Part shown: in pieces, positions 908 to 63,633 of the stretch
How positions within the stretch are numbered: the stretch's first letter is position 1
Layout of the letters: the number at the start of each line of letters is the position of its first letter
Assembly: GCF_000420825.1 (NCBI RefSeq)
Contig: NZ_ATVR01000011.1
Span: 1 to 64,000, forward strand
DNA from: Butyrivibrio sp. AE2015
Lineage (GTDB): Bacteria; Bacillota; Clostridia; Lachnospirales; Lachnospiraceae
Direction: 5' to 3'
Length of the DNA stretch: 64,000 bases
The notes under the pieces: model-generated
What the model saw: the letters and a program-made list of their open reading frames with translations, nothing else
The model's database searches: none
What the model was told of the DNA's origin: nothing
Position numbers and translations under genes: made by a program

Positions 908-1147
908 TTACTTACGCATATACAAAGATAAAATATTGGGATGGATGCTAATTACATCCATCCCAATACTCTTGCAGCGATTTCCTTTGTGACCTTCATC
1001 ATGAAAACTGATTTCAACTGTTACATCAGGTCTCTCTGAAAGTGCCTCAATGACCATCTTATGGACATGTGAACCGCCATTCGCATTTATATTTGATGTA
1101 TTTTCTTTCATCGCCGGATAATTCCACGCAATCTCCACCGAAAGCAA
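908..1147 (-). pseudogene. Possible decayed gene fragment
   Basis: A 79-codon frame lies downstream of the Pel operon. It has protein-like composition in its middle (residues about 25-60, containing SERPDVTVEISF). However, its last codons run through the terminator hairpin, no ribosome binding site precedes its ATG, and another short open stretch with a stop lies just upstream at 1148-1220. I do not recognise the family. It could be the remains of a secreted-protein domain or chance. The rest of 892-1237 shows nothing else. Confidence 0.2.
922..967 (-). terminator. Intrinsic terminator, probable end of the Pel-operon transcript
   Basis: Read on the minus strand, a perfect 13-bp stem (955-967 with 935-947) closes a 7-nt loop and is followed by ATTTTATCTTT. 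It is the first convincing leftward terminator after the DUF4832 stop codon at 1238. Confidence 0.75.
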
Positions 1148-1237: not shown

Positions 1238-2611
1238 TCATTTCTCCCACAAAAAAGATTTTGTCCCCGCTCTTTCTGCCTGCATATTTAGATATACTGA
1301 TGGCTCATTCTTCCCCGGTTCTTCTATCCCCACGTAGATCTTTGTTCCGTCTTCTTTTAACAGATCACTTGAAATCCTTATTGTGCTCTGCATTTCCTGG
1401 TCCTGGCAGAGTTTTTTCAGATCAATTGAAATCAGGCATTTGTCTAACAACTTGCCGTATTGATCTTCAACATATATGTATGGTAAAAGATCAAAATACA
1501 CCGGCGCAACGCCATCATTTGTCATTGTTATTCCAATTTCTGTAATATTATTAACTGTATTTTTCATGCTAAGCGAGCTGACCCTGTACCTATAACCAAC
1601 AGTCCTTAAGACATCACAGATAGCCTCCGAAATACCTTCATCCCCTCGTGGGCATTCTGGAACCATTGGCCCGATAAATGTCATATGAGAATCTTCAAGT
1701 AAAGACAAGGTTTTATCAAGATTATTTCCAAGCATGGTACTCATAGGTATTGAACTTGTAAACTCTCCGCCCACAGGTGCAATATTCCATACTTCAGGAG
1801 CACACCTAAGACCGTTTTCTTCTTTGGTCGCACTATAAGCACCGCCGTTTTCTATCCAGTCAAGCCACTCCAAAGTATCCTCTTCTGCTCCTGTCATATC
1901 ATTGAAAACTCCAAAGTCTTCAGGCATCTCTGCAAAAGGCCTTCTCATCAAAAGACGCGCATAAGGAAAAGCATTTACATAGTGCTGTACGTAAATGCTT
2001 CTTATCTCTGTCAGAGGCATTTTAGGAATTCCTGCGGGATAATATGTGTGCCATTCTCCCCAGTGACCAAGGCTTCCAAGCTCAACATAAGCAAGGAACC
2101 CATCTTCTGAAAAATGCCTTCCGATCTCATTTATAACTTTTTCATGTTCGCTGATAAATACCTGATTATTGTAATCCGGGCAATATCCGCATCCATACTC
2201 TATTGTATAAAACTCACCATCTTTTGTTTTTTCATAGAGCCAGTCCGGAATATCCATATGTTCTTCACTCTTTGGATAATCGCAAACAAATCTAAGGACA
2301 AGATGCTTGCCCTCTTTTCTCCATTCATCCAGATGATTGTCAGCTTCTATGTTATCCCAGGCATAAACGCCTTCTTCAGGTTCAAGCTCTCTCCATTTAA
2401 GATTCATATAAACAAGAGTACTTGTCTGACATAGATCCACGCTGTCACAATCAGGCGCAAATCCCATATATGGATTGGGATAAATGCCATCATCTGCCTT
2501 ATAGTAAAATACTTTTTCTTTTCTGAAATTAAAGAACATATAGAATGCTCCGACCAAAGCCGCTGCAAGAAGAGTAAATATAAACAGCAGCATCAGCTTA
2601 TTTTTACGCAT
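1238..2611 (-). CDS. DUF4832/DUF4874-type membrane-anchored putative glycosidase
   Basis: A 457-residue protein with an N-terminal membrane anchor (about residues 6-28) followed by an extracellular domain. NPYMGF near residue 46 and a GHWGEWH motif near residue 183 match what I know of the DUF4832 family, which has a predicted TIM-barrel, glycosidase-like fold with no established activity. The Glu in GHWGE is a plausible catalytic acid (inference). The start at 2611 is preferred because GGGGAG sits 4 nt upstream; it overlaps the DUF4956 stop by 8 bp. It is the last gene of the Pel operon. Because the PelA-type protein lacks a hydrolase domain and the GH3 protein appears inactive, this is the best candidate for a hydrolase acting on the polymer. 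Confidence 0.75.
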   Translation of the reverse strand: MRKNKLMLLFIFTLLAAALVGAFYMFFNFRKEKVFYYKADDGIYPNPYMGFAPDCDSVDLCQTSTLVYMNLKWRELEPEEGVYAWDNIEADNHLDEWRKEGKHLVLRFVCDYPKSEEHMDIPDWLYEKTKDGEFYTIEYGCGYCPDYNNQVFISEHEKVINEIGRHFSEDGFLAYVELGSLGHWGEWHTYYPAGIPKMPLTEIRSIYVQHYVNAFPYARLLMRRPFAEMPEDFGVFNDMTGAEEDTLEWLDWIENGGAYSATKEENGLRCAPEVWNIAPVGGEFTSSIPMSTMLGNNLDKTLSLLEDSHMTFIGPMVPECPRGDEGISEAICDVLRTVGYRYRVSSLSMKNTVNNITEIGITMTNDGVAPVYFDLLPYIYVEDQYGKLLDKCLISIDLKKLCQDQEMQSTIRISSDLLKEDGTKIYVGIEEPGKNEPSVYLNMQAERAGTKSFLWEK

Positions 2612-3275
2612 TGTACTCCCCATTATACTGAATGAGTGTTACATCTTTTACCTTATCAATGTTTCTTATCTTCTCTTCGAAGAAGAAGTCATCGCCTTTA
2701 ACATTAACTTCTACGGCAAGCTCTGTAACATCACCGCGCATAGTCTTGGACTTAACAAAGTATTTCTTTTTACCAAATGCTCTTAAGATCTCATCTCCGG
2801 CCTCTGTTCCCTCATAATGGATAACAGCGATATAAATCTTGCCATTTGATGATCTTGAATAGAAAATAGCAATCATGATTATCATGATAACTGCTGCCAC
2901 AAGTGTAAGTGCATACATTCCGGCGCCTGCAGTAATACCGGTTGTTATAGACCAGAACAGGTACAAAAGATCAAGGGGATCCTTGACTGCAGTTCTGAAT
3001 CTGACAATAGAAAGGGCACCTACCATACCAAGGGAAATAACAACGTTGGTACTGATTGCCAGAGTAACCATGCATGTAAGAACACACATACCAATAAGTG
3101 TTACTGCAAAGCTTTTTGAAAAAATGACACCTGCATAGAATCTTCTGTATACAAGGTAGATCAAAATTCCTAACAAAAGTGCAATTAAAAGTGCAATTGC
3201 AATGCTTCCAACATCATAAGTTGAATATGCATCAGAATTTAAAATTGATTTTTTGATCATATCTTTAACGCTCAT
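2604..3275 (-). CDS. DUF4956 membrane protein
   Basis: A 223-residue protein with about four transmembrane helices (residues about 22-45, 55-80, 85-105 and 110-140), with RFRTAVKDPLDLLYLFW between helices and a soluble alpha/beta C-terminal domain (about 145-223). The RFR-x-KDP-type loop and layout fit DUF4956. Its ATG overlaps the stop of the TTM gene (ATGA), so the two are translationally coupled. DUF4956 proteins are commonly found beside TTM/VTC-like polymerase-domain proteins and CotH kinases. By analogy with the yeast VTC complex it may be the membrane partner of the neighbouring TTM domain; that role is inference. Confidence 0.8.
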   Translation of the reverse strand: MSVKDMIKKSILNSDAYSTYDVGSIAIALLIALLLGILIYLVYRRFYAGVIFSKSFAVTLIGMCVLTCMVTLAISTNVVISLGMVGALSIVRFRTAVKDPLDLLYLFWSITTGITAGAGMYALTLVAAVIMIIMIAIFYSRSSNGKIYIAVIHYEGTEAGDEILRAFGKKKYFVKSKTMRGDVTELAVEVNVKGDDFFFEEKIRNIDKVKDVTLIQYNGEYNA

Positions 3276-4000
3276 ATAATATTCCTCTCATCTACAAAAC
3301 TATCGCTACCATAAAGGTATGCGGTCTTATCACAGCACAAAACAAATTTGGATGCAGCCGTAAATTCGCTTGACGCTGGCGGGCACAGATCCCTTACAAG
3401 CTGCGGTAAAAACTCTGTGTATTTCACTTCCATAATAAGTTTATCTGACGGAAGTGCATTAAGAGTCGGAAGGGTAGGATCAAATATATCGTAGCTTCCG
3501 ATTGCTGCCCTGACCTTTTTATCAAAGGTTATCCTGACAGTCCCTCCATCATGAATATATGGAGCCCTGTCATAATCCACAATAACCCTTGGCCTTAGAA
3601 CATTGCTCACACATTCAACATAGAACTCTTTTAAAAGGTTATTGTCCTTTTGCAAAAGAAATCCGTAATCTCCTTCAATTATCCTGTATACCTCATCTTT
3701 TGTGAGGCTTGCTGCTTCTTTATAAATATATTTATCGTTTTTGATTTTTCTTTCAAGCTTAATACCTTTATCAGAAAAATTATAAATCCTGATCCTGTAT
3801 TTTTTTCTGAAGAATACGCCCATGTCTTTTTCTTCGTAAGCACTGTTAAAAAAGTCATCAAAATACAGGCTCCTTATAAGATATTCTCCGTTTATTGCAT
3901 TAGGATCCAGCTTAAAGTAGGGCGCAAGCCTTGGTTTTAAGGCTTCAAACTCCCCATAGCTGATAAGATATTTCCACTCATGTCTAAAGGTTTTATCCAT
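3272..4000 (-). CDS. Polyphosphate polymerase (VTC/TTM) domain protein
   Basis: A 242-residue soluble protein made of a single triphosphate-tunnel-type domain. The expected tunnel residues are visible: RHEWKY near the N-terminus, RSLYFDD, RKKYRIRIYN, KLERKIK, a VDYDRAPY strand, RITFDK, IMEVKY and TAASKF near the C-terminus. These correspond to the basic and acidic residues that bind triphosphate or polyphosphate and metal in the VTC catalytic domain. It has no SPX or transmembrane segment, so membrane attachment would need a partner, presumably the coupled DUF4956 protein. Actual polyphosphate synthesis is not shown. It lies 28 bp after the CotH gene inside the Pel operon. Confidence 0.82.
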   Translation of the reverse strand: MDKTFRHEWKYLISYGEFEALKPRLAPYFKLDPNAINGEYLIRSLYFDDFFNSAYEEKDMGVFFRKKYRIRIYNFSDKGIKLERKIKNDKYIYKEAASLTKDEVYRIIEGDYGFLLQKDNNLLKEFYVECVSNVLRPRVIVDYDRAPYIHDGGTVRITFDKKVRAAIGSYDIFDPTLPTLNALPSDKLIMEVKYTEFLPQLVRDLCPPASSEFTAASKFVLCCDKTAYLYGSDSFVDERNII

Positions 4001-4028
4001 ATATACACCGCTTTACTAATTATAATGG

Positions 4029-5828
4029 TTACTCAACGACCGTATACCTGTCTATTGTACCATCTTCATTTATATAAAAACATAGTACTCCAAATGTTTT
4101 TCCAACTTCGGCTTCTTCGTAGTAATCAAAACACTCCTGAGAATTGCCTTTTTCATCATAGGCCCTGACAGAAAGGAAGTATTCACCAGGCTCCGGAACA
4201 TCGCAGCTAATCTTTGTCCATACACCCTCATAAGTAGCAACTACGTCTGTACCATCATTGTTTCTGGATAAAACTGCCTTGTAAGTAATTTCATCCTGCT
4301 GAAAATCATAGGCAGTATCCCAGTTCATAAGAAGCTTTCCATCCTCGATAACCGGTTCTCCGACATAGAAAGGTAATGGTTTTTCCAAAGATGCAAGATA
4401 GTGCTCATAGTTTTCCTCAATCTGATTCGGCAGTTCCAGTGCTACCTCATCATACTGCTTGGGAGTCAGCTGTTCATAAGTGATATCAGGAGCGTTCCAT
4501 AAATACTGTTCTACGACTGCCCTGTAATCTGTTATCATCTCGCTGATCCTGTTTGGAGTAATAACATTTTCTTTTAGATCAAGGATTGCTCTATCGAGCT
4601 CTTCTCTAAAGCTATCAGATTTTAAGCACCTGTTAAACAGTACATTACCCCAGTAGTTACTTACACCTTTTTCCCAGCTTCCATAATCTGTTCTTGTAAG
4701 GATTTCATTTTCTTTGATCCTGAATGCACCATCTAAATCCCAGCTAATAAAATACCACACATTTTCATTCTTAGGGCTATAAAGATAACAGTTTCTGCTC
4801 TGTGTATCAACATTTCCGGTCAAAATATTAAACGCAAGCCAATATGCAAGATTCTCTCTGTCAAAGTGCTTATCCAGCACTTCATCTATGGAAATTGAAT
4901 AATCATTAAGATCATCAAGCATATCAATGAGCTTTGTATGGTCACTATCCCCCTTTATCTCGAGGTACTGTTCGAATTTACTTACATCATATCCAGGATC
5001 TGTCTCGAGTTTTATAGCATCCTCATATCTGAAAAATTCAAAAAAGTTCACCTTATAGAGCTGACCATATCTGTCAAGTCCATGGGCCCTAAGAGCTGTC
5101 TTGTTGAGCTGTTCAACCTGCGTATACAAGCCATAATCTTCAAATCCGTCATCACTTCCATCTGTGAGGTCATTGACATAAAGATGAACAAATTGAGTTC
5201 TCAGGCTCATTAGCTGTTCCACATTTTTCAAAATATCAAATCCCAGTTTATTCCTAAATCTAAGTCCGTCAGTCTGGTGCTTGTTTAAGTCTATAGTAGT
5301 CTGTCCATTCCAATTTCCCTGATTCTCTTTGAGCTTGATCTTATAGTTCTTTTGAACATTCTTACTGGAACTCTGACCTCTTATCTGAACAGTCGCATTG
5401 GGAGCTGTCCTGCCAAATCCAAGATTTCCCGCCGGAATTCCCTCTTCTGTTCCAACCTGCAAAAGAGCTTCCACCTTATACCTTGGAATACCCAGTTCAT
5501 CGTAATAATAGGCAGAATGTGAGTTGACCTCTTCCCAGGTATGGTTCGTTCCTTCAATCTCATTGCCCTGTCTGACAGTCAGATACATAGTAACTACATC
5601 CATTCCATCATCCTCATACAGAGCATCAACATCCCGAATGTGACTGACACCACTTTCATCCGTACTGATATTCTTATTATCTATCACCTGCAAAAAAGTC
5701 TCTGTTTCTGCCTGTGACTGATTGTCCGTATTAAAATAGTAGTTATATATATTGCTTCCGGCAATAGCTGCCGCTACCACAATAAATCCAAATACTATTC
5801 CTATACTTTTTCTCTTTTTCTTTTTCAT
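4029..5828 (-). CDS. CotH kinase family protein, membrane anchored
   Basis: A 599-residue protein with a KKKKRK N-terminus and one transmembrane anchor (about 9-29), then an extracellular CotH domain. Family motifs are present: IRGQSSSKN (149-157) with a downstream KNYKIKL, GLYTQVEQ, a GNVDTQSRNCY segment, and SWDLDGAF near 363 giving the metal-binding DxD. CotH proteins are secreted atypical protein kinases known from Bacillus spore coat. Here the gene is in a polysaccharide operon, so a target among Pel or surface proteins is only a guess. The C-terminal 120 residues (LPFYVGEPVI onward) look like a fibronectin-III-like beta domain. The gene starts 13 bp after pelG. Confidence 0.85.
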   Translation of the reverse strand: MKKKKRKSIGIVFGFIVVAAAIAGSNIYNYYFNTDNQSQAETETFLQVIDNKNISTDESGVSHIRDVDALYEDDGMDVVTMYLTVRQGNEIEGTNHTWEEVNSHSAYYYDELGIPRYKVEALLQVGTEEGIPAGNLGFGRTAPNATVQIRGQSSSKNVQKNYKIKLKENQGNWNGQTTIDLNKHQTDGLRFRNKLGFDILKNVEQLMSLRTQFVHLYVNDLTDGSDDGFEDYGLYTQVEQLNKTALRAHGLDRYGQLYKVNFFEFFRYEDAIKLETDPGYDVSKFEQYLEIKGDSDHTKLIDMLDDLNDYSISIDEVLDKHFDRENLAYWLAFNILTGNVDTQSRNCYLYSPKNENVWYFISWDLDGAFRIKENEILTRTDYGSWEKGVSNYWGNVLFNRCLKSDSFREELDRAILDLKENVITPNRISEMITDYRAVVEQYLWNAPDITYEQLTPKQYDEVALELPNQIEENYEHYLASLEKPLPFYVGEPVIEDGKLLMNWDTAYDFQQDEITYKAVLSRNNDGTDVVATYEGVWTKISCDVPEPGEYFLSVRAYDEKGNSQECFDYYEEAEVGKTFGVLCFYINEDGTIDRYTVVE

Positions 5829-5841
5829 AAAAGTGCCTTTC

Positions 5842-7293
5842 TTATGCAGCTTTTTGATTCCTGCTTATAAACGCATAGAGTTTACTTCCGAAGCCATAAT
5901 GCCTTTCAGCCACAATAGGCTGTGAACTCAGGATATGATATGGAAGCTTTTTGGTATAACTGATAAGTTTAAAAAGTGCAAAAACGAAATAGATTATGCA
6001 GCTTAGGGCAAATCCAAATCCATAATATTTGGATTCAAGAAGCAGTGATAATGCACTGAGAACAGTAGATGAAACTCCAAAAAGAATCGCTGAATTTCTC
6101 GCGTCCTCATAATCCGTAAAATACATAAGGATAAGCATGAGAACATTACCTACTGCGTAAGCTCCATAGCCAACGCTCAGCACCCTAAAGTACCCTTCCA
6201 TCAGAGAATCAAATCCAAGGGGGAGTCTTTCCAAAAACACAAGTCCCACGGAAAGAATAAGTGCTGTGGCATAAAACTGCCTTCTGGCTGTGTAAACAAG
6301 CTCGTGTTCCAAAACAGTTATCATTTCATTTTCAGCCTGTTCTATTTCAACAATCGATCCTGTTCCATTAAAAAGATCGTAATATCTCCTGTACTTTGGA
6401 TAAAAATTAACTTCAACCGATGCCACAAAATTAATTGTGGTAATAAGAATCGTGATAAAGGCAAAAAGTGCAGCCACATCATGCTGAGGCGCTCCATAAT
6501 AAAGGCCTTTTATCTGTATTCCCACATCACTCATCCAGGCTATGACAAGATGAGAAAATAGCCCTAAGTTTGTAAAAAAGCCAACAAGCATAAGGTCTTT
6601 GTACTCGTCAAACCAAGGAAGAAAAGCGAAATGATTTTCCATGGAATTTGGAAAGTATCCATACAAAAGGATCATGTCATATACGATCATAACGCCATAT
6701 CCGACGCTTACGCTGAGCATCAGGATATGTAGGGATACTCCTAAAAAAGCACAGCCAAACATCGCAGTAAGAACAGAAAAAATAATGGCATAAACGTAGG
6801 ACATAAGAATACCTTTATAATCCTTGACTGCAGTCAGATAGTTCATCTGTGTCCAGGCCACTATAAGCTCCATAAATAAGACAAAATTGAGAATGCACAG
6901 CATAAGGTCAATTCCTGCATTTAACAAAAATATAATCCATAAAATGCCGCCAAAAGGCATCTCAAATCCAAGTATTCCCTCCATTGAAGGTATTACATCC
7001 TTTTCTTTTTCCTCATACAAAAGATCTGCAACATACCTGGTCATTACCATAGAAAAGATGCTGCTGATTGCCATAGATGCCAAAAGACAATATGTTATCA
7101 TGCATACCAGAAGGTCCTGTTCAGGCTTTTGCAGCCCTGCTGCCCTTCCAATATAGTTGATGCTAAGAAGGAAAAGAACCCCCAGCAGCATTGGACCTGC
7201 TGTGACCATCCCCGTATAGCCGTAGGCTTTCAGCATCGACAGGACACCTGTGGCTCTAAAGAGCTTTTTTAACTCAAATCCTATACCTGCCAT
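5842..7293 (-). CDS. pelG: Pel polysaccharide exporter PelG
   Basis: A 483-residue polytopic membrane protein with about 12 hydrophobic segments and the diagnostic PelG start MAGIGFELKKLFR. PelG belongs to the MOP flippase superfamily (polysaccharide transporters) and forms the membrane complex with PelD, PelE and PelF that makes and translocates the Pel chain. Its length is close to that of Pseudomonas PelG. Its ATG directly abuts the pelF stop codon, with GGAG inside the end of pelF as ribosome binding site. No missing segment is evident. Confidence 0.93.
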   Translation of the reverse strand: MAGIGFELKKLFRATGVLSMLKAYGYTGMVTAGPMLLGVLFLLSINYIGRAAGLQKPEQDLLVCMITYCLLASMAISSIFSMVMTRYVADLLYEEKEKDVIPSMEGILGFEMPFGGILWIIFLLNAGIDLMLCILNFVLFMELIVAWTQMNYLTAVKDYKGILMSYVYAIIFSVLTAMFGCAFLGVSLHILMLSVSVGYGVMIVYDMILLYGYFPNSMENHFAFLPWFDEYKDLMLVGFFTNLGLFSHLVIAWMSDVGIQIKGLYYGAPQHDVAALFAFITILITTINFVASVEVNFYPKYRRYYDLFNGTGSIVEIEQAENEMITVLEHELVYTARRQFYATALILSVGLVFLERLPLGFDSLMEGYFRVLSVGYGAYAVGNVLMLILMYFTDYEDARNSAILFGVSSTVLSALSLLLESKYYGFGFALSCIIYFVFALFKLISYTKKLPYHILSSQPIVAERHYGFGSKLYAFISRNQKAA

Positions 7294-8709
7294 TTATAAA
7301 TTAACTCCATATTCGATCATATTGTACAATTTATTGTACCTGGACATCATCTGCGGATGTTGAAAATACTTTTCAACTCTCCTCTTTCCGTTTTGTCCCA
7401 TCTCAATTCGCTTATTTCTGTCGCTGCACATTCTGTCCATAGCCTTTGCAAGCCCCTCTCTGTGCATAGGCGGTGCAATGAAGCCCGCAGTTCCGAAAAA
7501 GTCTCCGCTTGCCCCTTCTATAAGTTCACGACAGCATCCAACATCTGTTGTAACAACAGGCCTTCCTGCAGCAAAGGATTCAAGAACCGAAAGAGGCTGT
7601 CCTTCCGAAATACTAGTAAGCACAGTAAAATCCAGCTTCTCCATGTATTTCACCACATCAACCTGTCCAACAAATTTGATATTTTTTAGTTCAAGGCTCT
7701 CCACCAGCTGATAGCATTCCTCTGCATATTCCTCATCATCAACTCCACCAAGAATATGAAGACGGACATTATCTCTCATTCCCGAAAGTTCATGGAAAGC
7801 GTATATTAAAGTCTTTACATCTTTTATCTGAGCAATTCTGATAACTGCCCCGATATCCACAAAGCCATCATCTTCCTTGTAAGGGATGTTGCAAAATCTC
7901 TCGTATCTTATTCCATTTGGAATAACCCTGCATTTCTCCGGATCAGCCCCAAGCTCAACCTGTATCTTATTGGCATTTTCAAACAGGCAGGTGACATATG
8001 TAGCTCTTTTATATACTGCATCAGACAGCATGTAAAAGAACTTGATCCATTGCTTTTTAAAAGCAGGTATTACCCATTGGGCTCTTATTATCTCTTCTTC
8101 TCTTTCTCTTGAATAGATTCCATGCTCAGAAAGAATTATGGGCCTTCCTGTTTTATAATTGGCAAGTGAAGCCAACAGTCCACCATATCCCGTACATATT
8201 GTGTGGTATATGTCTGCTTCCGGGACCTTACTTCCAAGAAGATAAAGTACAGGAAGAAGCATGGATCTGATCGTGTGGAAAGTCTCCGCAAAAGCCACAT
8301 ATGGATATTTTTCTTTGCAGAGCCTTGTCAATATTTCAAGAAATTCCTCACTCATAAGAAAACTTGCAGGATTATAATGTCTATCCTGATACATGTTATA
8401 AAGCAGATTCCAGTCAGGGCTTTCGCAATCTATAAGTTTTTCTACGGCTTCTTTTTCCTCATTTGATAGTTTGAATCTGTCCTTTTTACCCGCTCTTACC
8501 TTTAAAGCGTCGTCCAAAAAGATCTCGTGAACCTCCTTAACATTTGGCGGAAGCTCATATTTGTATCTGCCTCTATCCCTGGCATGAGCACCAATCACCC
8601 ATAAAATAAAAGTATGCTCAGGAAGCGCCTGGATATAACCGTGCATCCAGGACGCAACGCCACCATATGTATAGGGATAACTTCCCTCCAAAATAAGGCA
8701 TATTTTCAT
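7294..8709 (-). CDS. pelF: GT4 glycosyltransferase PelF
   Basis: A 471-residue cytoplasmic GT-B glycosyltransferase. The N-terminus has the PelF signature LEGSYPYTYGGVASW, and the nucleotide-sugar site shows the EX7E pattern in EGQPLSVLE followed by AAGRPVVTTDVG. PelF polymerises the Pel chain from UDP-sugars (in Pseudomonas UDP-GalNAc/GlcNAc); substrate here is inferred from family. It sits between the deacetylase and pelG, 3 bp after the former, with AAGGAA upstream of the ATG. Confidence 0.94.
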   Translation of the reverse strand: MKICLILEGSYPYTYGGVASWMHGYIQALPEHTFILWVIGAHARDRGRYKYELPPNVKEVHEIFLDDALKVRAGKKDRFKLSNEEKEAVEKLIDCESPDWNLLYNMYQDRHYNPASFLMSEEFLEILTRLCKEKYPYVAFAETFHTIRSMLLPVLYLLGSKVPEADIYHTICTGYGGLLASLANYKTGRPIILSEHGIYSREREEEIIRAQWVIPAFKKQWIKFFYMLSDAVYKRATYVTCLFENANKIQVELGADPEKCRVIPNGIRYERFCNIPYKEDDGFVDIGAVIRIAQIKDVKTLIYAFHELSGMRDNVRLHILGGVDDEEYAEECYQLVESLELKNIKFVGQVDVVKYMEKLDFTVLTSISEGQPLSVLESFAAGRPVVTTDVGCCRELIEGASGDFFGTAGFIAPPMHREGLAKAMDRMCSDRNKRIEMGQNGKRRVEKYFQHPQMMSRYNKLYNMIEYGVNL

Positions 8710-8712
8710 AGT

Positions 8713-10536
8713 CTATTTCCTTGTTACAGTTACAGTTTCCTGCTTTGCATCAAGAAGATACAAAGTGCCATTTAGTTTCTTTAAAGATCCGCCTTCTGCG
8801 CTTACTAGTTCCCCTTCTGAAACTCTAATAAGGTAAAAAGCATCATCTATAAGTCCTTCTGTCTTAATCGTAAGATTTTTGTCATCAAGCTCCGTATCCG
8901 GGATTACATTGACATAGCGCTGGACAGCGCCTGCCATCCCAGAGCCCGTCAGGTGTCTTATATCAGGAGCTGATTCATCTATCCAGGTCATATAATCATC
9001 AAGATTCTGACTAAGCTGTTTCCACCCGATGGCAGCTCCTCTGTCTTCATCAAGAAGATCATCAGGGTGCATAAAGTGGGACGTAACAAAATGAAAATTG
9101 AGTTCCGAAAATGCCGCCAGCTTCATGTAGTCATCGATAATACAGCTAGAGACTATTCTTGGAGTCTCTACAATTCCATCCTCCGAGACTTCATATTCCT
9201 GAGAGTATGCATCAGGTCCCTCAAAATAAATACTTGCTATAGTCTTGATATTTGGAAACTCATCACTGATAAGTTGTCTTCCCTCAAGAGATAAAACATC
9301 AGAAGGTGGAACGTATACACTCAGTTCAGATCCCGGAAAAATGCCGGTAGAGAACTTTGTGAGTTCATCAAGAGAGTTGTACATGGCATCATAGCTCTCC
9401 CACACCTTATATCCGATGTCATCTTCATATACATAGTCAGGTCCGCACAAAGGCTGATGATTATAGCCATGATATCCTACTTCACCGCCCTTGTTCAAAA
9501 GCATGTTTCCGTAGTAATAATAATCTGCAGTGCTCTTATTGGTAGGAAGTTCTTCGCCGGTATCATCTTCATAAGTCTCAATGATCAGTCCTGTATATGG
9601 AATATTGTGTTTATCTCCAAGTGCAAGGACTTTGGGCCACCACACAGCTGAATAAAACTGAGCAATTCCCATCCCATAGTCTCTTCTGATATACTCGCCA
9701 TCACCTGAAGGAGTTGGTGACGGGAAATCATCCAGATAAAATGTAGAAGCATTTATAACAGGGTAGACAAAGACATCCTCCAAAAGAGTATAAGCACTTG
9801 AATATATGCCTCTGTATGCCTTTGAAACATAGCTGAAGTTACATACAACAAATTTCCCATCTCCATATTTATAGCTCCATATAAGTGGCTTACCATCTGA
9901 GGTATGGGCATAAACTTTGGCCGATAACTCAAGCTGAACAACAAGCGCAGACTCATAGGCATCGTCTACATAGTACGTTTTATCTGCTCCAATCATATAG
10001 TCTTTTTCTGAGACAAAATCGGAAACTGTCGAAAAATTGTTGCCCATTTCTACTATTCCAAGCTTAGGACTTATGATATCGAAGTTCTCTGACCTCAAAG
10101 GCGTTATTCCAAAAAGAAGTCTCCCACCATCTTTTACCCAGTCGGTCAAGATAAAAATATCTTCCTGCATGACAGAATAGTCACTAATAGCTGCAACAAC
10201 CGTTTCATATTCTCTACCACCACTAAAAAACATGCCTTCACTCATCTTGGTGTCAGCAAGATCAAGTGTATCGTAGCTCACTCTCATATCCTTAAGGATC
10301 TGCTCATACTGAGGATAGATAAGGTTACTTGTGGCATCGTTTGTGTTTATCATCAAAAGACATTTCTTTTCTCCTGAAGTTTCCTTCATATGCACAACAT
10401 TATCGCTTGGCAAAAGAGTCACTTTTTCAGCATTTCCCTTGTAAAGGATTCCGATCCTCTCAACAAGGAGAAGCAAGAATATGGCAAAAAAACCGATGGC
10501 CACATTTATCAAAACATAAAAATGTCTTTTCTTCAT
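8713..10536 (-). CDS. PelA-type polysaccharide deacetylase (DUF2194)
   Basis: A 607-residue protein with one N-terminal membrane anchor (about residues 6-27), an alpha/beta domain resembling a type-1 glutamine amidotransferase fold (about 55-250), then a CE4/NodB-like deacetylase domain. Metal-site candidates are visible: LDD near 268-270 and GYHGYNH at 354-360, plus TSHFMHPDD further on. It corresponds to the deacetylase part of PelA and lacks the hydrolase part, as in the Bacillus cereus type of pel locus. The ATG at 10536 is chosen because it overlaps the pelE stop (ATGA) and has GAGGAG/GGGAG upstream; a GTG eight codons earlier is less likely. Confidence 0.85.
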   Translation of the reverse strand: MKKRHFYVLINVAIGFFAIFLLLLVERIGILYKGNAEKVTLLPSDNVVHMKETSGEKKCLLMINTNDATSNLIYPQYEQILKDMRVSYDTLDLADTKMSEGMFFSGGREYETVVAAISDYSVMQEDIFILTDWVKDGGRLLFGITPLRSENFDIISPKLGIVEMGNNFSTVSDFVSEKDYMIGADKTYYVDDAYESALVVQLELSAKVYAHTSDGKPLIWSYKYGDGKFVVCNFSYVSKAYRGIYSSAYTLLEDVFVYPVINASTFYLDDFPSPTPSGDGEYIRRDYGMGIAQFYSAVWWPKVLALGDKHNIPYTGLIIETYEDDTGEELPTNKSTADYYYYGNMLLNKGGEVGYHGYNHQPLCGPDYVYEDDIGYKVWESYDAMYNSLDELTKFSTGIFPGSELSVYVPPSDVLSLEGRQLISDEFPNIKTIASIYFEGPDAYSQEYEVSEDGIVETPRIVSSCIIDDYMKLAAFSELNFHFVTSHFMHPDDLLDEDRGAAIGWKQLSQNLDDYMTWIDESAPDIRHLTGSGMAGAVQRYVNVIPDTELDDKNLTIKTEGLIDDAFYLIRVSEGELVSAEGGSLKKLNGTLYLLDAKQETVTVTRK

Positions 10537-11426
10537 GCTCCCATCTCCTCTTTTTCCCACAGTTTCACTATTTCTCTTATCTCTCTTGAATAGTAATTGC
10601 CGCTCTGTGCTGTATTTTTTATCATCTCTTTTAACTTGGTACTGGCACCTGTCTCATAATAGTATCTAAACCTTAAAAGCCAGTTTCTCTCATCCAAAGG
10701 CCAACTCTGCTCCATCGTAGAAAGAGCTACGTCAGCCCTGATATATAACTTTGAATCTAAAAGACTCTTAGCAAGTTTTTCATAGTCATCAATATTGGGA
10801 CTTAGGGTAAGCTTGGTAATAAGAAGCTGATGGTAGGTATTTCTCTGGATCTCAAGGAGCTGTCCCTGAACCATACCGCTTGATATATATTGGGCAAGAA
10901 AAGATATATATTCATCAAGAAGTCCCTCTCGCCCCGGATTATTGGCATACTCACTGCTATATTCCTGAAGCTTTAATTCATATTCTTTTGAAAGCTCCAC
11001 CATGGCTGTTGTAGCGTAATGGACTACTTCAACATCATCATTCATCCTGGCCTGATTGATAACGGGAATATATTTTTTTACATCAGTCATAAGAACGTCC
11101 ATCATGACTGATCGTCTCACAGTTGGATCATTCATAATAAGAGCATCTTCAAGGGGTACAATGTCATCAGATTCTGCTTCCTGCCTTGGTAAAAGAGACT
11201 GATCTATAAGATTGCTTCTCATGAGCTCAAGGTCGCCATTTTTATTTCCATCCCTGCCAAGCTTTATCATAATGGTTATGATCACAGCACAAAGAGCACC
11301 CCAAAAAGGAATGCATATTACCATGACCATCATGAGACTATCAATTTTTAATACGCCAAGCTTCATAAGTACGAATACAGCAAGGCATAGCACAAAATGT
11401 ATGAGCAGAAAAATGAATACTATCAT
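10533..11426 (-). CDS. pelE: PelE-like inner-membrane scaffold protein
   Basis: A 297-residue protein with two N-terminal transmembrane helices (about 2-22 and 32-54) followed by an all-helical cytoplasmic region (about 75-297) that looks TPR-like. In Pel systems PelE links PelD to the synthase complex. Assignment rests mostly on topology and on its position directly between pelD and the deacetylase gene, because sequence conservation of PelE is low. Its ATG overlaps the pelD stop codon (ATGA). Confidence 0.8.
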   Translation of the reverse strand: MIVFIFLLIHFVLCLAVFVLMKLGVLKIDSLMMVMVICIPFWGALCAVIITIMIKLGRDGNKNGDLELMRSNLIDQSLLPRQEAESDDIVPLEDALIMNDPTVRRSVMMDVLMTDVKKYIPVINQARMNDDVEVVHYATTAMVELSKEYELKLQEYSSEYANNPGREGLLDEYISFLAQYISSGMVQGQLLEIQRNTYHQLLITKLTLSPNIDDYEKLAKSLLDSKLYIRADVALSTMEQSWPLDERNWLLRFRYYYETGASTKLKEMIKNTAQSGNYYSREIREIVKLWEKEEMGA

Positions 11427-13528
11427 CCTACACTCTCCACTACATCACACTTAAGCCCCATATTCTGGAACCTCTTTAATACAATAGTTTCACTGCTGTC
11501 ATCCACCTGCGATGCCAAAAGATATATATTGTTATCACTGCCAAGTCCCACAATATCGTTGTTACGTATCTTAGTCTGAAGCATTTCATCAATTTCCGTA
11601 AGAGTCCTGTTCTCTCTCATGATCCTAAAGAGTCTAAAATCTGTAAGCTTATTATCAGCCATTTCTTTCTGTATATTAAACTGCTGTACAAAATACTCAT
11701 ACTGAGTGATCTGAGTTCCCTCAACATATGTTTTATCAGCAACAGCTTTCTGATACTCCCATGCCTTGATAATAAAGTTCTCCATAAGTCCGCTTAAAAT
11801 CCTGATAAGGTTTGTATAATACGTGCTGATCTGAATATACTCAACATGGTAGATCATTATCAAAACACTTAATGCACCTTCAGATTTTATTCCGGCAACG
11901 TAAGTTGGAAATCCTTCTCTAACATCTCTGTTAAACCAGATCTCCCCCTTGGAAACCTCATCTATAACCGTTCTGTAATCATCAAGATTTATGGATTTTT
12001 TCAGATTGGAACTGATCTGCTCTGACGCAACGCTAAGTCTTGCAAATCTTGCACCTTTGTCATTGATCGTGTATATTGCTATGGACCTGTTATCAAGAAC
12101 ATCTTCCATAACAGGAATTGACTCAGCAAAAATCTCTTCTGGTACAGTGGTACTGAGTTTCTGGACTACATCGAAAATTCTGCCAAATCCATCCCTGCTT
12201 CCTATAAGATCCTGCTTATACTGGTTCTTATATTCCATGGCTTCTTCATAAAGCCTGTTAACAAAGCCTTTTTCTTCTTTTAACAGCTTATTCTCATCAG
12301 ATATAAAAGCGAGGTCCTCATCTTTTCTCTGTTTGATATATCCGCAGACCGCTGCCGTGACTAAAAGGAGAATAAATGGTATCCAGTTGCTTGGATCATA
12401 GAAAAGCAAAATGCCATTAGTTCCCTGCCTGTAATATGCAAGTACCAAAGACACGATCTCCAATATAGCAGTAATTCCTCCAATACGAGTACCATAGACC
12501 AGGGACATAAGCACAACAAATAAGAGTCTTACATCAATCATTCTAAACTGCACACTGCCGCCGGAATAATAATTGTAAACCTCAACAAGAAAAGCACCCA
12601 GGATCAGTTCAAGGAACATCATTATCTTTCCGTTTATCCTTAGTTTTTCTCTAAGAATTTCGGCAATCTTCCTTTTAACATGGTACAATTCACGATACTG
12701 TTTTACATACTCATCAATTTCAGAAACAGCATCTTTTTGAGCAAACCATCCATAAAAATGCCTTGCAACATCCTGTCCATATTCAAGTCTGCCTCTAATC
12801 GATGACCCTGAAAAAACCACATCTGCATTCTTGTATATCTTTTTAATTGATGAAAATGCCTCTTCATAGGTAGTGTTTGCACCGCTTCGAAGATAAATAG
12901 TTTCATAGATACCATTGTCACTTTCATCTTCTCCCCACACATCGAAGAGTCTGCTCAAAAAATCCGAGAGGTCTTCGATTGACAGAAAATCTGCTATTTC
13001 ATCACCTCTTGCTTTGATCTCAACTTTTTCCCCTTTTTCAAGAGCATCAAAAATACGGCACCAAAAATCATCTTTATAGTGCCCACTTATCAAATGAGGA
13101 GAGTATATTATTTTTACTGAAATCTGGTATTGCTCAGCGTAATATCTGCAGATAGATTCCACAGAACTGTATATTAGAGAGTCACTATTTTCTACATCAA
13201 GAAGTGCCTCATCAGATGTCACATAAACAAATTGCTTTACTTTTGTCTTTCTGCAAAGTGAAAGGACATTACGAAGCTGCTCAATCTCACCCACCTCATA
13301 GCTGTCCTTATTTATAAAATGCGACACAAATACAACTCGCTCGAAGCCATAAGTAAAAAATAAAGTTTTAAAGTCATCACCCATGATAGACTTTTTAAAC
13401 CACCTGATATTACCTTCTTTCTGGCTTTCAAGCTTAGGTCCGCATAGTATTATATTGTCTGTCCCAAATGCAGTTTCGAGGGATTCCTTCGAAAAATAAC
13501 CATTACTACCTACTACAAGGGTATCCAT
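11423..13528 (-). CDS. pelD: PelD-like c-di-GMP receptor with N-terminal SDR domain
   Basis: A 701-residue protein. Residues 1-290 resemble an extended SDR/NAD-dependent epimerase but with a weak nucleotide loop (VGSNGYFS) and no YxxxK (YSSVES), so it may not be catalytic. Three or four transmembrane helices follow (about 303-400), then a coiled segment, a GAF domain (about 448-595) and a degenerate GGDEF domain (about 618-701). In the latter, RNND at 655-658 matches the RxxD inhibitory site that binds c-di-GMP, while the GGDEF position reads SDNNI and should be inactive. This is the PelD arrangement with an extra front domain. The gene follows the GH3 gene by 47 bp and has AGGGAG upstream. 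Confidence 0.9.
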   Translation of the reverse strand: MDTLVVGSNGYFSKESLETAFGTDNIILCGPKLESQKEGNIRWFKKSIMGDDFKTLFFTYGFERVVFVSHFINKDSYEVGEIEQLRNVLSLCRKTKVKQFVYVTSDEALLDVENSDSLIYSSVESICRYYAEQYQISVKIIYSPHLISGHYKDDFWCRIFDALEKGEKVEIKARGDEIADFLSIEDLSDFLSRLFDVWGEDESDNGIYETIYLRSGANTTYEEAFSSIKKIYKNADVVFSGSSIRGRLEYGQDVARHFYGWFAQKDAVSEIDEYVKQYRELYHVKRKIAEILREKLRINGKIMMFLELILGAFLVEVYNYYSGGSVQFRMIDVRLLFVVLMSLVYGTRIGGITAILEIVSLVLAYYRQGTNGILLFYDPSNWIPFILLLVTAAVCGYIKQRKDEDLAFISDENKLLKEEKGFVNRLYEEAMEYKNQYKQDLIGSRDGFGRIFDVVQKLSTTVPEEIFAESIPVMEDVLDNRSIAIYTINDKGARFARLSVASEQISSNLKKSINLDDYRTVIDEVSKGEIWFNRDVREGFPTYVAGIKSEGALSVLIMIYHVEYIQISTYYTNLIRILSGLMENFIIKAWEYQKAVADKTYVEGTQITQYEYFVQQFNIQKEMADNKLTDFRLFRIMRENRTLTEIDEMLQTKIRNNDIVGLGSDNNIYLLASQVDDSSETIVLKRFQNMGLKCDVVESVG

Positions 13529-13575
13529 TACGGTTTATTCTCCCTAAATACTTTTCTTCCCCACTTACATTCGCC

Positions 13576-14868
13576 TTAGCTTTCCTTAGTTATCTCCTCC
13601 ACCCTGTCAGCATACTTAATTCTGTATATCCTGCTAAGAGATTCTGTAATCCTTTCCTCAGATATTTCCCCATTATTGACAGCTTCTAAAAGTCCATTGT
13701 AAGCTGTCTCAAAATCTTCAGGAAGGTAGATCATATCTGCTCCGGCCTTTATTGCCATGACCGCAGCCTGATCTGAAGTGTAATACTCTGTGATGGCCCC
13801 ATCATCCAGAGCACCTGTTATTACTATGCCATCAAACCCAAGAACTCCCCTGAGTTCATCTTCTATGATCACTGATGAAAGTGAAGCCGGAGTGTTATCT
13901 CCAACCACATTTGGGAATGATGAGTTTGAGATCATGATCGCTGTAACATTTCCATCGTCTATAACATTTTTAAACAATGAATATTCACCGGTTGCAAGCA
14001 TTTCAGTGGAATCATCGATCTGCTCCATCTTAGAAGAAGTATCTCCCTGTTTAGGGAAAGAATATGCACAAGACCATATTCCCTCACTTCTAAGCGCCTG
14101 TGACAATGATGCTGTCAAAGCCTTGACAGTTTCAGCATCCGTGCCAAATACTCCACTTTCTGTAATATCCATATTCGGTGAAAGGTCAAAATTAAAACCA
14201 TATTTATACATAGAAGCTGCAACTATTGCCCCATTTTCTGAAGCAGCCTCTGCATCTGTATAATCCACTATTTCATCAATACCGATTGATGAGCTGATAG
14301 CTCCCTTTCCCCACTCGCTTACCATAGTGAAGAGTGGATACTTACTCATGGAAGTTGTGGTCGAAAGCATCTCAGTTATCTGATCCTCTGACTTGATGTT
14401 TTTGGCGGAGTAAACTATTCCGCCTACAGCATATTGGGAAAGAGCATCCTGTGTTCCGCTTCCTGCCTTGACTGCAGTAGCAACACCTGTAAGCTGTTCA
14501 GGTGTAACTATAAAAAGACCTGCAACCTTATCCTCAATAGGCATTGTATCTATTACATCTGATACAACCTCATCCATTATGTCCTCTTCAGACATTTCCT
14601 CGGGTTCACTAACCGCTTCCGGAGTTTCTATAACTATTTCCTGACTGCTCTCCAAAGATGCAGCTTCATCTCCAGCCTCTTCCGAAGAAGCAGCAGTTTT
14701 TCCTCCGCCAAGTAAGCTCTTTATGAAAACAACTCCAAAAACTATAGCTAAAACAATCAGAATGACTACAACTGCCAGTGATATATATGCAATGAGCTGG
14801 CTCCTTTTTCTTTTGTTCCTGCGAGCCATTCGCTTCTCATCAAAATCCTGTTCTTCCAATCTACTCAT
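13576..14868 (-). CDS. Membrane-anchored GH3-like pseudoenzyme
   Basis: A 430-residue protein: a short basic cytoplasmic tail, one transmembrane helix (about 25-50), an acidic linker (55-100) and a GH3/NagZ-type domain (about 100-425). The fold is recognisable from GDT, ALDDGAI, DQAAVMAIKAGAD and the C-terminal EERITESLSRI segment. Key residues are absent: the KHFPGHGDT loop reads YSFPKQGDT (269-277), the DSH that follows reads KME, and the nucleophile position in VTDAL reads ITGAL (Gly352). It should therefore be inactive as a beta-N-acetylhexosaminidase. As the first gene of the Pel operon, it may bind the polymer or a partner protein; that role is inference. Confidence 0.85.
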   Translation of the reverse strand: MSRLEEQDFDEKRMARRNKRKRSQLIAYISLAVVVILIVLAIVFGVVFIKSLLGGGKTAASSEEAGDEAASLESSQEIVIETPEAVSEPEEMSEEDIMDEVVSDVIDTMPIEDKVAGLFIVTPEQLTGVATAVKAGSGTQDALSQYAVGGIVYSAKNIKSEDQITEMLSTTTSMSKYPLFTMVSEWGKGAISSSIGIDEIVDYTDAEAASENGAIVAASMYKYGFNFDLSPNMDITESGVFGTDAETVKALTASLSQALRSEGIWSCAYSFPKQGDTSSKMEQIDDSTEMLATGEYSLFKNVIDDGNVTAIMISNSSFPNVVGDNTPASLSSVIIEDELRGVLGFDGIVITGALDDGAITEYYTSDQAAVMAIKAGADMIYLPEDFETAYNGLLEAVNNGEISEERITESLSRIYRIKYADRVEEITKES

Positions 14869-14979: not shown

Positions 14980-15029
14980 AAATAAAAATCAAGGGCAGAA
15001 GCTTCATCGTATTACCTGCTTCTGCCCTT
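14980..15029 (-). terminator. Terminator-like hairpin in the leader of the Pel operon
   Basis: On the minus strand a perfect 12-bp stem (15018-15029 with 14991-15002, arms AAGGGCAGAAGC/GCTTCTGCCCTT) closes a 15-nt loop and is followed by GATTTTTATTTAT. It lies between the strong leftward promoter at 15385-15413 and the first operon gene at 14868. It could end a separate short transcript or act as an attenuator. Confidence 0.65.
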
Positions 15030-15250
15030 ATACCGAGTACTCATCATCTAAATTAAAATTTTCTGCGTCCAATGGACTTTTCCTCCGATTCTCAGCTCAT
15101 CGTTCCATTTACATTTGCATTCATATGCTGTGGTTGCAAGATTTAAATATGCCCTAACCACTTCTCATGTACTTGAATTGCTGTAATTCTGATACTTCTT
15201 TGAACTTCGAACTTAAAACTTTTTTATAAAACTAAACTTAGTATGCTGGT

Positions 15251-15306
15251 GGACCGTACCATCCTTTCTCTGAATATTTTAATTAACTATCCCTTTGGAC
15301 CGTACC
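15251..15306 (-). repeat. Direct repeat in the long leader
   Basis: GGACCGTACC occurs at 15251-15260 and 15297-15306. On the minus strand both copies are preceded by a GAGAAAG-like purine tract and read GGTACGGTCCA. Both lie within the predicted transcript from the 15385 promoter. Elsewhere in the 14869-15755 spacer I see only short AT-rich hairpins (for example CTCCAAT 15318-15324 with ATTGGAG 15346-15352) and no supported gene. Confidence 0.4.
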
Positions 15307-15384
15307 TCCCTTTCTTTCTCCAATTTACGATCTCACTATATATTGATTGGAGAAGTATTTTTGTAACTCTTACTTGATGGTTTT

Positions 15385-15413
15385 ATTATATTTATATCCA
15401 TCCAATTTGTCAA
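15385..15413 (-). promoter_or_regulatory. Consensus sigma-A promoter, leftward
   Basis: On the minus strand TTGACA (408-413 of 15 kb) and TATAAT (15385-15390) are separated by exactly 17 bp, a full consensus promoter. Transcription would start near 15378, giving a leader of about 510 nt before the GH3 start codon. A weaker second promoter nearer the gene (TTGGTT and TATGAT around 14900-14930) is also possible. Confidence 0.8.
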
Positions 15414-53275: not shown

Positions 53276-53719
53276 TTACTGACTCATGTAACTGAAACCG
53301 GTTTTTTCAATGAACACATCAAACGCTTTCTTGAACAGGATAAAATAAGCTTCCTCCTTATACTGTGCATCATGAGAAAGGAAAAAGATAACTTTTCCAC
53401 TCTTTATATCCCACTCAATATCATGCTGAGGATCAAGCGCATCTATATCCTTAAAAGAAAGACCATACTTTTCTTTGCAGTAATCATCCTTATTTTCCAT
53501 ATCCATTGTAGCTTCGATAATATTGGATTTTATCTTAAGAAGATTATCAAGCTGTTCCAGCATGATCTGATGAACAATATTCAGGGCTGAGATTTCATAG
53601 CCCACAAGACGCATGTCAGAAATGATCCTGTGAAAATCAACATTAGTGTATTCAAAAGGATCTATCCTGTTCTCACCATAACAAAAAACCGCATCATATA
53701 ACGCCTCGTTCATAATCAT
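53276..53719 (-). CDS. Protein of unknown function coupled to the EAL gene
   Basis: A 147-residue soluble, acidic, mostly helical protein with no signal or transmembrane segment. I do not recognise the family. Its ATG overlaps the EAL gene stop (53716-53719), so translation is coupled. A partner or target of the phosphodiesterase is possible from position alone. Confidence 0.65.
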   Translation of the reverse strand: MIMNEALYDAVFCYGENRIDPFEYTNVDFHRIISDMRLVGYEISALNIVHQIMLEQLDNLLKIKSNIIEATMDMENKDDYCKEKYGLSFKDIDALDPQHDIEWDIKSGKVIFFLSHDAQYKEEAYFILFKKAFDVFIEKTGFSYMSQ

Positions 53720-62178: not shown

Positions 62179-63567
62179 TCACATCGCAAAAGCAACTGTC
62201 CCTAAAAATTCCGTGTTTATCTGAACTTTACCGTTTGTTACTACTGCATCATAGGAATGAACCTCACCTGTAACAGTTCTAACATATACTGTTATGGTCT
62301 TTCCTTCATAAGCTTTATCGAGAGTAAATGTGTATTTTGCTGGTGCTTCAAGCTTTGTAAGGCTTACTCCTGCTGCATAAGCTCTGATAAAGAGAGCGCC
62401 TTCAATCGGAGTCTTTCCGGACTCTGTTATTGCTGTATTGAGGGCCTGTGCGTTTTTATCAAGTCCGTTGTTTTCATTTCCGTTTCTATCAAGAGCAGGA
62501 ACAATTGTTGCTGTTATCTTTGATGAATTGCCCGCAGAAGCACTTGCAGAACTAAGGTCAACAACAACGTTCACTGACTTTCCATTTGAATCTTTTACTG
62601 CTACAGTAGCCGCACCTGAATTATTTGATACAGCTGCAAAATTACCATTTGATATATCAGATGTGTATACATTAGCGTAGTCTGACGTGGTTGTTATATT
62701 TGATCCTGATGAATTATTGTCATCTGAAGATGCACTGCTTCCACTATCTGTACCAGAAGCGTCTGAATCTGATGAAGACTCTGATGAAGGCTTTGTACCG
62801 GCTGTAATAGTGACGTTTCCTTTGTATGCATAGTCTTCAGATGAAGTTATGATTCTTCCGATTTCGCCTGCATGAATATCCGTTCCATAATAACCTTGAT
62901 TAAGAATTGACCCATCAGAAGGAGAAGATATATAGCTATCATTAAGAGTAATCGTGCCACCTACTGCAGCAATAGGAAACTGTCCAGAATTTTCAGCAGC
63001 AACATTTGAGTTGTTGATAACAACATTATGGTTTCCGTATTCGCCCTGAGCATGAGAAGACATCTGGTCTTGTCTTCCAGCTTCAATACTGCCTGTACTT
63101 GTTACATTTGAATCAGTGATAATAACATCTCCATCTGTTCCTTTACCGTCTTTTCCACCGTTTATGCCATCAGCAGATACAGTTGATTCTGTTATCCTCA
63201 AATCTCCATCAGCAGAAATGGAACCTCCTGCAGTAATGTTGGCACTATTAATTGTAAGATCAGCATTGGTTGAAGAATCGGATGTACTTACTTCGATATT
63301 TCCGGAAACTGTAACAGGGTCATTGTTTGTTGTAACAGTAATATCATTATCAGCCACGACATCACCATCAACATCGTCTGTCAAAGTAAGTATGCTGTCG
63401 CCAGAATTCCAGGTAAACCCTTCGCCGCTTTCAGTCTCATCATTAAATGCATTGGATTCTTCACCAACATATCCTGATGTTCCAGCATAAGCAATTATCG
63501 GAGAACCGATGAGACTTGCTGCAACAAGCCCACTCAAAACTTTGGCAGCTACTAAATGTCCTTTCAT
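62179..63567 (-). CDS. Secreted surface protein under c-di-GMP riboswitch control
   Basis: A 462-residue exported protein. The signal peptide ends near IIAYAG (about 26). Residues 40-260 are Asp/Thr/Ser-rich beta repeats (for example DNDITVTTNNDPVTVSGNIEV-like strands), suggesting a right-handed beta-helix. A Ser/Asp-rich linker (about 265-300) leads to a C-terminal beta domain (about 310-462). There is no LPXTG or S-layer motif. The start at 63567 has GGAGGTGG upstream. Adhesion or biofilm-matrix function is suggested by the upstream GEMM-I riboswitch but is not shown. Confidence 0.85.
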   Translation of the reverse strand: MKGHLVAAKVLSGLVAASLIGSPIIAYAGTSGYVGEESNAFNDETESGEGFTWNSGDSILTLTDDVDGDVVADNDITVTTNNDPVTVSGNIEVSTSDSSTNADLTINSANITAGGSISADGDLRITESTVSADGINGGKDGKGTDGDVIITDSNVTSTGSIEAGRQDQMSSHAQGEYGNHNVVINNSNVAAENSGQFPIAAVGGTITLNDSYISSPSDGSILNQGYYGTDIHAGEIGRIITSSEDYAYKGNVTITAGTKPSSESSSDSDASGTDSGSSASSDDNNSSGSNITTTSDYANVYTSDISNGNFAAVSNNSGAATVAVKDSNGKSVNVVVDLSSASASAGNSSKITATIVPALDRNGNENNGLDKNAQALNTAITESGKTPIEGALFIRAYAAGVSLTKLEAPAKYTFTLDKAYEGKTITVYVRTVTGEVHSYDAVVTNGKVQINTEFLGTVAFAM

Positions 63568-63596
63568 TAAAATCCACCTCCATGAAATAAAAATGA

Positions 63597-63633
63597 ATAT
63601 AAAAAAACTGCTTACCATAAAGACAAGCAGTTT
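63597..63633 (-). terminator. Riboswitch expression-platform terminator
   Basis: On the minus strand AAACTGCTT (63625-63633) pairs with AAGCAGTTT (63605-63613) across 11 nt, followed by TTTTATATTC. It lies between the aptamer and the start codon. Confidence 0.88.

Follow-up and report, generated by a model that had tools for sequence, protein, structure and literature searches.

We describe an exopolysaccharide locus of Butyrivibrio sp. AE2015, located within positions 1 to 64,000 of contig NZ_ATVR01000011.1 (64,000 nucleotides, referred to here as "the window"). Ten minus-strand open reading frames (ORFs) span 1238–14868, with 5′ to 3′ junctions of +47, −4, −28, +3, 0, +13, +28, −4, and −20 bp. 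The original prediction, made from the sequence alone, had reported ten leftward genes with short gaps or overlaps, and this layout is confirmed, with a largest gap of 47 bp and a largest overlap of 28 bp. It had also called all ten genes a Pel-type operon. This is correct for nine of them, i.e., pelD-E-ADA-F-G followed by genes for CotH, VTC, DUF4956, and DUF4832 proteins, which form a Gram-positive Pel operon (see the PelF and PelG matches below); the first gene, encoding a GH3-like protein, was wrongly counted in. The operon architecture is of an already published type and is not new. Three observations are new here. First, the cotH-VTC-DUF4956 module is not specific to Pel, and in a sample of the window's phylum it stands mostly away from pel. 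Second, the VTC protein appears, by alignment, to keep the catalytic residues of yeast Vtc4. Third, the GH3 gene belongs to a genus backbone beside a conserved RNA, not to pel. We give about an even chance to the reading that the known Gram-positive Pel operon is present here in a Butyrivibrio version, combined with a separate cotH-VTC-DUF4956 surface module, which would tune matrix quality or attachment and not Pel synthesis. The features of the locus, in transcriptional order, are as follows.

15385..15413, minus strand: sigma-70-type promoter match (12 of 12 positions) upstream of the RNA and GH3; promoter-like sites overall are not commoner than chance (47 found, 50.2 expected from shuffles)
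13576..14868, minus strand: GH3-like protein (Pfam GH3 PF00933) with an N-terminal transmembrane segment and lost glycosidase residues; genus backbone, non-pel
11423..13528, minus strand: PelD, with an N-terminal degenerate SDR domain (weak Pfam Epimerase match; domain type as in PMC7112168), a transmembrane region, and a degenerate GGDEF domain with RxxD (RNND)
10533..11426, minus strand: PelE-like protein; no Pfam match, identified by position and by its own profile recurring in other pel loci
8713..10560, minus strand: PelADA-like predicted deacetylase (Pfam DUF2194, E 6e-151; DUF2334 under cut-off)
7294..8709, minus strand: PelF glycosyltransferase (NCBIfam equivalog NF038011, 343 bits, cut-off 100)
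5842..7293, minus strand: PelG transporter (Pfam PF16933, E 1e-129)
4029..5828, minus strand: CotH-family kinase (Pfam PF08757, E 3e-71) with an N-terminal signal-anchor (by inspection)
3272..4000, minus strand: VTC, a triphosphate-tunnel, polyphosphate-polymerase-like protein (Pfam PF09359, E 1e-35)
2604..3275, minus strand: DUF4956 membrane protein (Pfam PF16316, E 3e-11)
1238..2623, minus strand: DUF4832 glycoside-hydrolase-like protein (Pfam PF16116, E 2e-12), the positional counterpart of SIR_1591
930..972, minus strand: terminator-like hairpin 3′ of DUF4832 with 19 pairs, six of them G-C (12 such sites found, 9.2 expected)

PelD and PelE are assigned from synteny and from profiles found again at the same place in other pel loci. 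From family knowledge, we take the core to direct Pel synthesis under the control of cyclic diguanylate (c-di-GMP): PelD would sense c-di-GMP through RxxD and, together with PelE, the PelF synthase, the PelG exporter, and the PelADA deacetylase, would yield a predicted Pel-like N-acetylgalactosamine polymer. DUF4832 would be a matrix-cutting glycosidase. The window holding PelD also encodes an EAL-domain protein, a candidate c-di-GMP phosphodiesterase (53716–55635, minus strand), and contains a c-di-GMP-I riboswitch immediately 5′ of a 479-amino-acid (aa) protein with no Pfam match at E 1e-4 (62179–63719, minus strand). Past the operon end, two 73-nt direct repeats, 74% alike, lie at 409–555.

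The accessory module beside pel and away from it

We searched 398 genomes of the window's phylum and found VTC in 64. Fetching 75 VTC regions (~10 kb of flank on either side, shorter where a contig ended) and adding the second VTC of the window genome (L003) gave 76 regions. PelG is present in two of these, CotH without PelG in 36, and neither in 38. CotH was scored anywhere in the fetched region, and short contigs undercount neighbors. VTC and DUF4956 are adjacent in 72 of the 76, as judged on a non-overlapping ORF list built in this analysis. The gene next to the pair is CotH in 32 regions, a member of a Cthe_2159 cluster in 20 (PF14262 in the member scanned), and a member of an LRR/LTD cluster in six. 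In 25 of the 76 regions, VTC is immediately preceded by two neighboring genes from a single cluster; the member scanned is a response regulator, and the partners look like histidine kinases by size. One representative was scanned for each of the Cthe_2159, LRR/LTD, response regulator, and MBOAT cluster names, along with some additional MBOAT-type members. From this search we excluded a single fragment below cut-off and both matches in the window genome itself (the second re-entered the set as L003), and a gene split into two pieces in genome G545 was fetched only once.

The full CotH-VTC-DUF4956 order occurs without PelG in three stretches of 20.6–20.7 kb (L235, L248, and L258), with no PelG for ~10 kb on either side. 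This contradicts PMC12345266, which states that no such three-gene arrangement was found away from Pel loci. About 7 kb further along in L235 and L248, a protein of 368 aa matches the PelF profile, as GT4 enzymes generally do. A fourth region with the same order and no PelG, L256 from Dethiobacter, was set aside as pel-like, since a PelF-like GT4, an HD protein, and a GH114 protein follow. VTC-DUF4956 pairs that are 78–83% (L210 and L211) or 72–74% (L192) identical to the window's pair lack both the pel core and CotH. Within the window genome itself, a second VTC-DUF4956 pair lies on contig C1 (L003:8754-10258), its VTC being 24% identical and with no CotH or pel in 19.5 kb. In another Butyrivibrio region, L255, GH3, a VTC-DUF4956 pair, and a second VTC-DUF4956-CotH set all lie in one 20.7-kb stretch.

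PelG was detected in 36 of 200 sampled Lachnospiraceae genera, 35 of them above cut-off; we dropped a weak match (G177) and a fragment of 61 positions (G092). The original prediction had proposed surveying PelG neighborhoods for the extra genes, and in other Lachnospiraceae genera pelG-cotH-VTC-DUF4956 was indeed found in 13 of the 36 PelG regions fetched (13 of 34 if two regions ending within 1.4 kb past PelG are left out). The gap between PelG and CotH is at most 62 bp in 12 of these 13 loci; in L043, a DUF4832 gene lies in between. Because this order recurs in other genera with tight gaps, it is beyond chance, and the extra genes beside PelG are contiguous with pel and not specific to one strain. 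However, 21 of the 34 informative regions lack the module, many regions having instead a further GT4 gene and DUF4832 genes behind PelG. A scan of named genomes seeded with the window VTC gave 53 loci, some on short contigs: 35 with pel, eight with CotH but no pel, and ten with VTC-DUF4956 only. The nearest matches are Butyrivibrio records at 97%, 92%, and 85% identity.

The prediction had gone further, with the four extra genes as integral components of a single export machine in which release of the polymer would perhaps be coupled to a step involving phosphoryl groups or polyphosphate. The tight junctions and the frequency of pel at loci found with the window VTC are what would be expected of such a machine. 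A single origin also fits the VTC data: although the tree places L109 away from the remaining pel-linked VTCs, one group of all pel-linked VTCs plus L114 is not rejected by the approximately unbiased test (p-AU 0.29). Repeated, independent capture of the module by pel is not shown. Set against this are the Lachnospiraceae pel loci without the module and a Butyrivibrio region, L153, where pel, CotH, and DUF4832 are present but tblastn over 19.9 kb matches neither VTC nor DUF4956. Moreover, the four accessory genes have been deleted in Streptococcus intermedius (SIR_1591–1594), and all four strains still make Pel and aggregate (PMC12345266). Together with the position of the module mostly away from pel, these points leave a single machine unsupported, and we regard it as highly doubtful.

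Genes for other polymers adjoin the module in some regions. In L248, a 60KD_IMP-sulfatase (LtaS-type), a CDP-glycerol glycerophosphotransferase-type protein, and a nucleotidyltransferase lie directly 5′ of CotH, a teichoic-type set; L235 has the same ORF layout (the domains given are those of L248). L139 has MBOAT, AlgX, metallo-beta-lactamase, GT2 with PilZ, and GH5 genes behind CotH, and L087 encodes a 713-aa protein, a HEAT protein, and a chitin-synthase-type GT2. L147 encodes a GT2 plus an LRR protein that weakly matches bactofilin; L129 has a DHHW/MBOAT protein, a weak bactofilin match, and a gene of the same GT2 cluster. The VTCs of L139, L087, L147, and L129 form one clade (support 100/90). 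A GT2 synthase neighbor as a rule was rejected: with single-sequence queries, GT2 was found in four of the 36 non-pel CotH regions, of which three had themselves served as queries, and in one of 37 others. Since so few of the non-pel CotH regions have GT2 nearby, polymer neighbors are a minority and the self-standing module is the common form in the phylum sample.

Possible functions of the accessory proteins

The VTC family profile matches yeast Vtc4 best (E 1.6e-18), with Vtc2 and Vtc3 at E 1.6e-9 or weaker. By counting along the printed alignment, R69, R71, and E191 of the window protein align with R264, R266, and E426 of Vtc4, the residues mutated to impair the yeast enzyme (PMC9911596). 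All three are among the positions invariant in 19 of 19 pel-linked VTCs (R6, E8, K10, K67, R69, R71, E83, K85, R145, R156, E191, K193, S217, and K218). Polyphosphate synthesis is the best reading of VTC. VTC as the sole source of polyphosphate was rejected, as Ppk1 is encoded in 19 of the 23 genomes looked at.

CotH resembles the Bacillus cereus CotH structure 5JD9 (E 4e-6), and D341 and the WDLD motif from position 363, which we take to correspond to the catalytic Asp and WDxD residues, are retained in the window. In L057 and L060, tandem CotH genes stand behind PelG; one copy is intact, while the other lacks WDxD (and, in L060, also the catalytic-loop Asp). These tandems are possibly pairs of a kinase and a pseudokinase.

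The AlphaFold2 model of DUF4956 (mean pLDDT 82) has five long helices and a C-terminal ACT-like domain, and G86, R92, R94, and G113 are invariant in 42 sequences. In a fold search, matches to solved structures are confined to the ACT-like part and score weakly, and a search of the Protein Data Bank with the DUF4956 profile gave chance-level matches only. These features bear on an alternative, in which VTC and DUF4956 make no polyphosphate and instead act, through the tunnel and the ACT-like domain, as nucleotide or phosphate sensors that adjust envelope genes or transport in the manner of MgtC-type proteins. DUF4956 is weakly MgtC-like, MgtC and ACT domains are also named in PMC12345266, and the response-regulator gene pairs 5′ of VTC would suit a sensory role. 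By contrast, the better match to the catalytic Vtc4 than to Vtc2 or Vtc3 and the invariance of the catalytic residues favor an enzyme. We consider the sensor alternative unlikely.

In the separate-module reading, cotH-VTC-DUF4956 would be a surface module that usually occurs without pel and also adjoins other polymer genes. VTC would polymerize polyphosphate in the cytoplasm, DUF4956 would partner it in the membrane by holding the chain or passing it on, and CotH, as a secreted kinase, would phosphorylate a surface or matrix target. In S. intermedius, deletion of the DUF4956 gene gives more Pel and deletion of cotH gives less, and each reduces aggregation by >50% in artificial sputum medium (PMC12345266). 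The gain in Pel with reduced aggregation on loss of DUF4956 fits a module that alters the quality of the matrix or attachment and not Pel synthesis. The DUF4832 protein, SIR_1591, is enzymatically active and disperses aggregates (PMC12345266).

Several points weigh against this reading. For deletion of VTC in S. intermedius, no effect is reported in PMC12345266, which makes it doubtful that the effect of CotH needs polyphosphate, and the deletions of DUF4956 and cotH shift the amount of Pel in opposite directions. The match to E426 sits in a second HMMER segment of only 1.4–3.1 bits. No bacterial VTC activity was found in the literature searched, including the available part of PMC10657179, and the window genome also encodes Ppk1. 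The membrane part of DUF4956 has no solved-structure match in the fold search, and the likeness to MgtC is weak (hhalign probability 67.6% against the window genome's MgtC; NCBIfam MgtC at E 0.001, far below cut-off). The pel-type VTC lineage, judged by the 35 of 53 seeded loci, is pel-bound more often than not, and polymer-synthase neighbors are as scarce as noted above.

A further alternative, proposed in PMC7112168, is that CotH is a regulator that phosphorylates the Pel machinery and sets Pel output, replacing or adding to control by c-di-GMP. The reduced Pel signal of the cotH deletion fits this proposal, as does the lack of a GGDEF domain in streptococcal PelD (PMC7112168). In Lachnospiraceae, however, c-di-GMP control seems intact beside CotH: RxxD, the predicted c-di-GMP-binding site, is kept in all 33 PelD proteins of at least 600 aa (the window's included, with RNND at the aligned place), and GGDEF genes lie 53 to 369 bp upstream of pelD in L047, L039, and L060. 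CotH also occurs with VTC-DUF4956 mostly without pel in the phylum sample. In addition, CotH would be expected from its family to face the outside of the cell, with PelD and PelF mainly inside. We therefore hold a regulatory CotH to be rather improbable.

A bolder extension of the separate-module reading is that VTC-DUF4956 is a bacterial polyphosphate synthase and translocase, which would supply a phosphoryl donor across the membrane, ATP being scarce outside, to an extracytoplasmic CotH kinase acting on surface polymers or their proteins. The same unit would have become part of Pel, cellulose-type, chitin-synthase-type, and teichoic-type clusters; elsewhere, Cthe_2159 or LRR/LTD proteins would take the place of CotH. 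We regard this as a long shot. If the pair does make and move polyphosphate, extracytoplasmic kinases would gain a plausible donor outside the cell. Two papers have asked what the cassette does, and the survey lets the question be put differently. Since the module is not made for Pel, its function can be studied at sites where it occurs alone or next to genes for other polymers. Since VTC-DUF4956 is a near-constant pair with exchangeable partners, a direct test is possible of whether the pair makes and moves polyphosphate.

The GH3-like gene and its upstream RNA

Upstream of GH3, between the perfect promoter match and an intrinsic-terminator-like hairpin, lies a strongly conserved RNA of ~340–400 nt (14990–15380, minus strand). 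At a threshold of E 0.01, 57 of 79 genomes of the genus match it, usually with one main match each. An Rfam search with the RNA gave no match up to E 1, leaving it unclassified by Rfam, and with a model of its 5′ part, 10 of 199 other genera gave matches, all of them weak and none stronger than E 2e-5. In the 3′ part, one of 33 predicted pairs has two-sided change, the sequences being very alike. A pel riboswitch was rejected as the main role of the RNA, because 57 of 79 genus genomes carry it while PelG is above cut-off in six of 41.

GH3 follows the RNA in 22 of the 23 other RNA-bearing Butyrivibrio regions (the exception being L196), and 15 of the 22 have no pelD behind it. In seven of the 23 regions, pelD stands behind GH3 (L153, L154, L155, L187, L190, L194, and L195); others have unrelated genes there, and L192 has VTC-DUF4956 alone. 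A 24th Butyrivibrio region, L152, has pel but neither the RNA nor GH3 within the stretch examined. Wherever a region extends far enough, serine hydroxymethyltransferase and diacylglycerol-kinase-like genes lie on the other side of the RNA, in either order. Compared with NagZ-type structures, the window protein has TG in place of the nucleophile TD and YSFPKQG in place of KHFPGHG, residues whose catalytic roles we assume, and it does not qualify as a NagZ-type GH3 beta-N-acetylhexosaminidase. Among 23 aligned GH3 proteins of the genus (the window's included), the nucleophile Asp is kept in three and the catalytic histidine motif in none. GH3 as a part of the Pel machine was rejected, given its presence in 22 of 23 RNA regions and that of pelD in only seven. 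Because the RNA-GH3 order is kept with or without pelD and the catalytic residues are lost, GH3 is, as judged from sequence, a lineage-specific pseudo-glycosidase in a conserved Butyrivibrio backbone, with pel inserted behind it in some strains. With a gap of 47 bp, it may still be the first gene of the pel transcript.

Comparison with known systems

The locus itself is a further member of a published type of Pel cassette. The original prediction knew of no description of the accessory functions, but in streptococci and clostridia a contiguous arrangement of pelDEADAFG and cotH-PPP-DUF4956-DUF4832 has already been reported (PMC7112168), and PMC12345266 covers the deletion of all four genes. 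The loci of PMC7112168 have the same genes in the same order, and PelD there is extended by an SDR domain judged likely inactive. The full SDR GxxGxxG motif is found in none of the Lachnospiraceae PelD proteins of at least 600 aa that are readable at that site. The window differs in that its pel genes are preceded by the GH3-like backbone gene and its PelD keeps RxxD, which streptococcal PelD lacks (PMC7112168). The correlation between SDR-PelD and the cassette drawn there is not strict, since SDR-length PelD is found in Lachnospiraceae both with and without the cassette (without, e.g., in L034, L036, and L037). S. intermedius SIR_1591–1594 are the same four accessory genes (PMC12345266).

Outside Pel, NELoc-2 of Clostridium perfringens has VTC-domain genes, each followed by a "tubulin/FtsZ, GTPase" gene, which may be DUF4956 by size and place, and then CotH (PMC2879425). 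Unlike in the window, a 685-aa protein, a HEAT protein, and a chitin-synthase-type enzyme then follow, with none named Pel in the available text; the composition of L087 is alike. The yeast VTC complex (PMC9911596) shares the tunnel domain and, by alignment, the catalytic residues with the window VTC, but here DUF4956 would replace the Vtc transmembrane part, there is no SPX domain, and a kinase gene is linked. Finally, L139 has functions similar to those of the clostridial cellulose synthase locus ccsZABHI (PMC7710045), i.e., MBOAT, AlgX-type, GT2 with PilZ, and GH5, right behind VTC-DUF4956-CotH.

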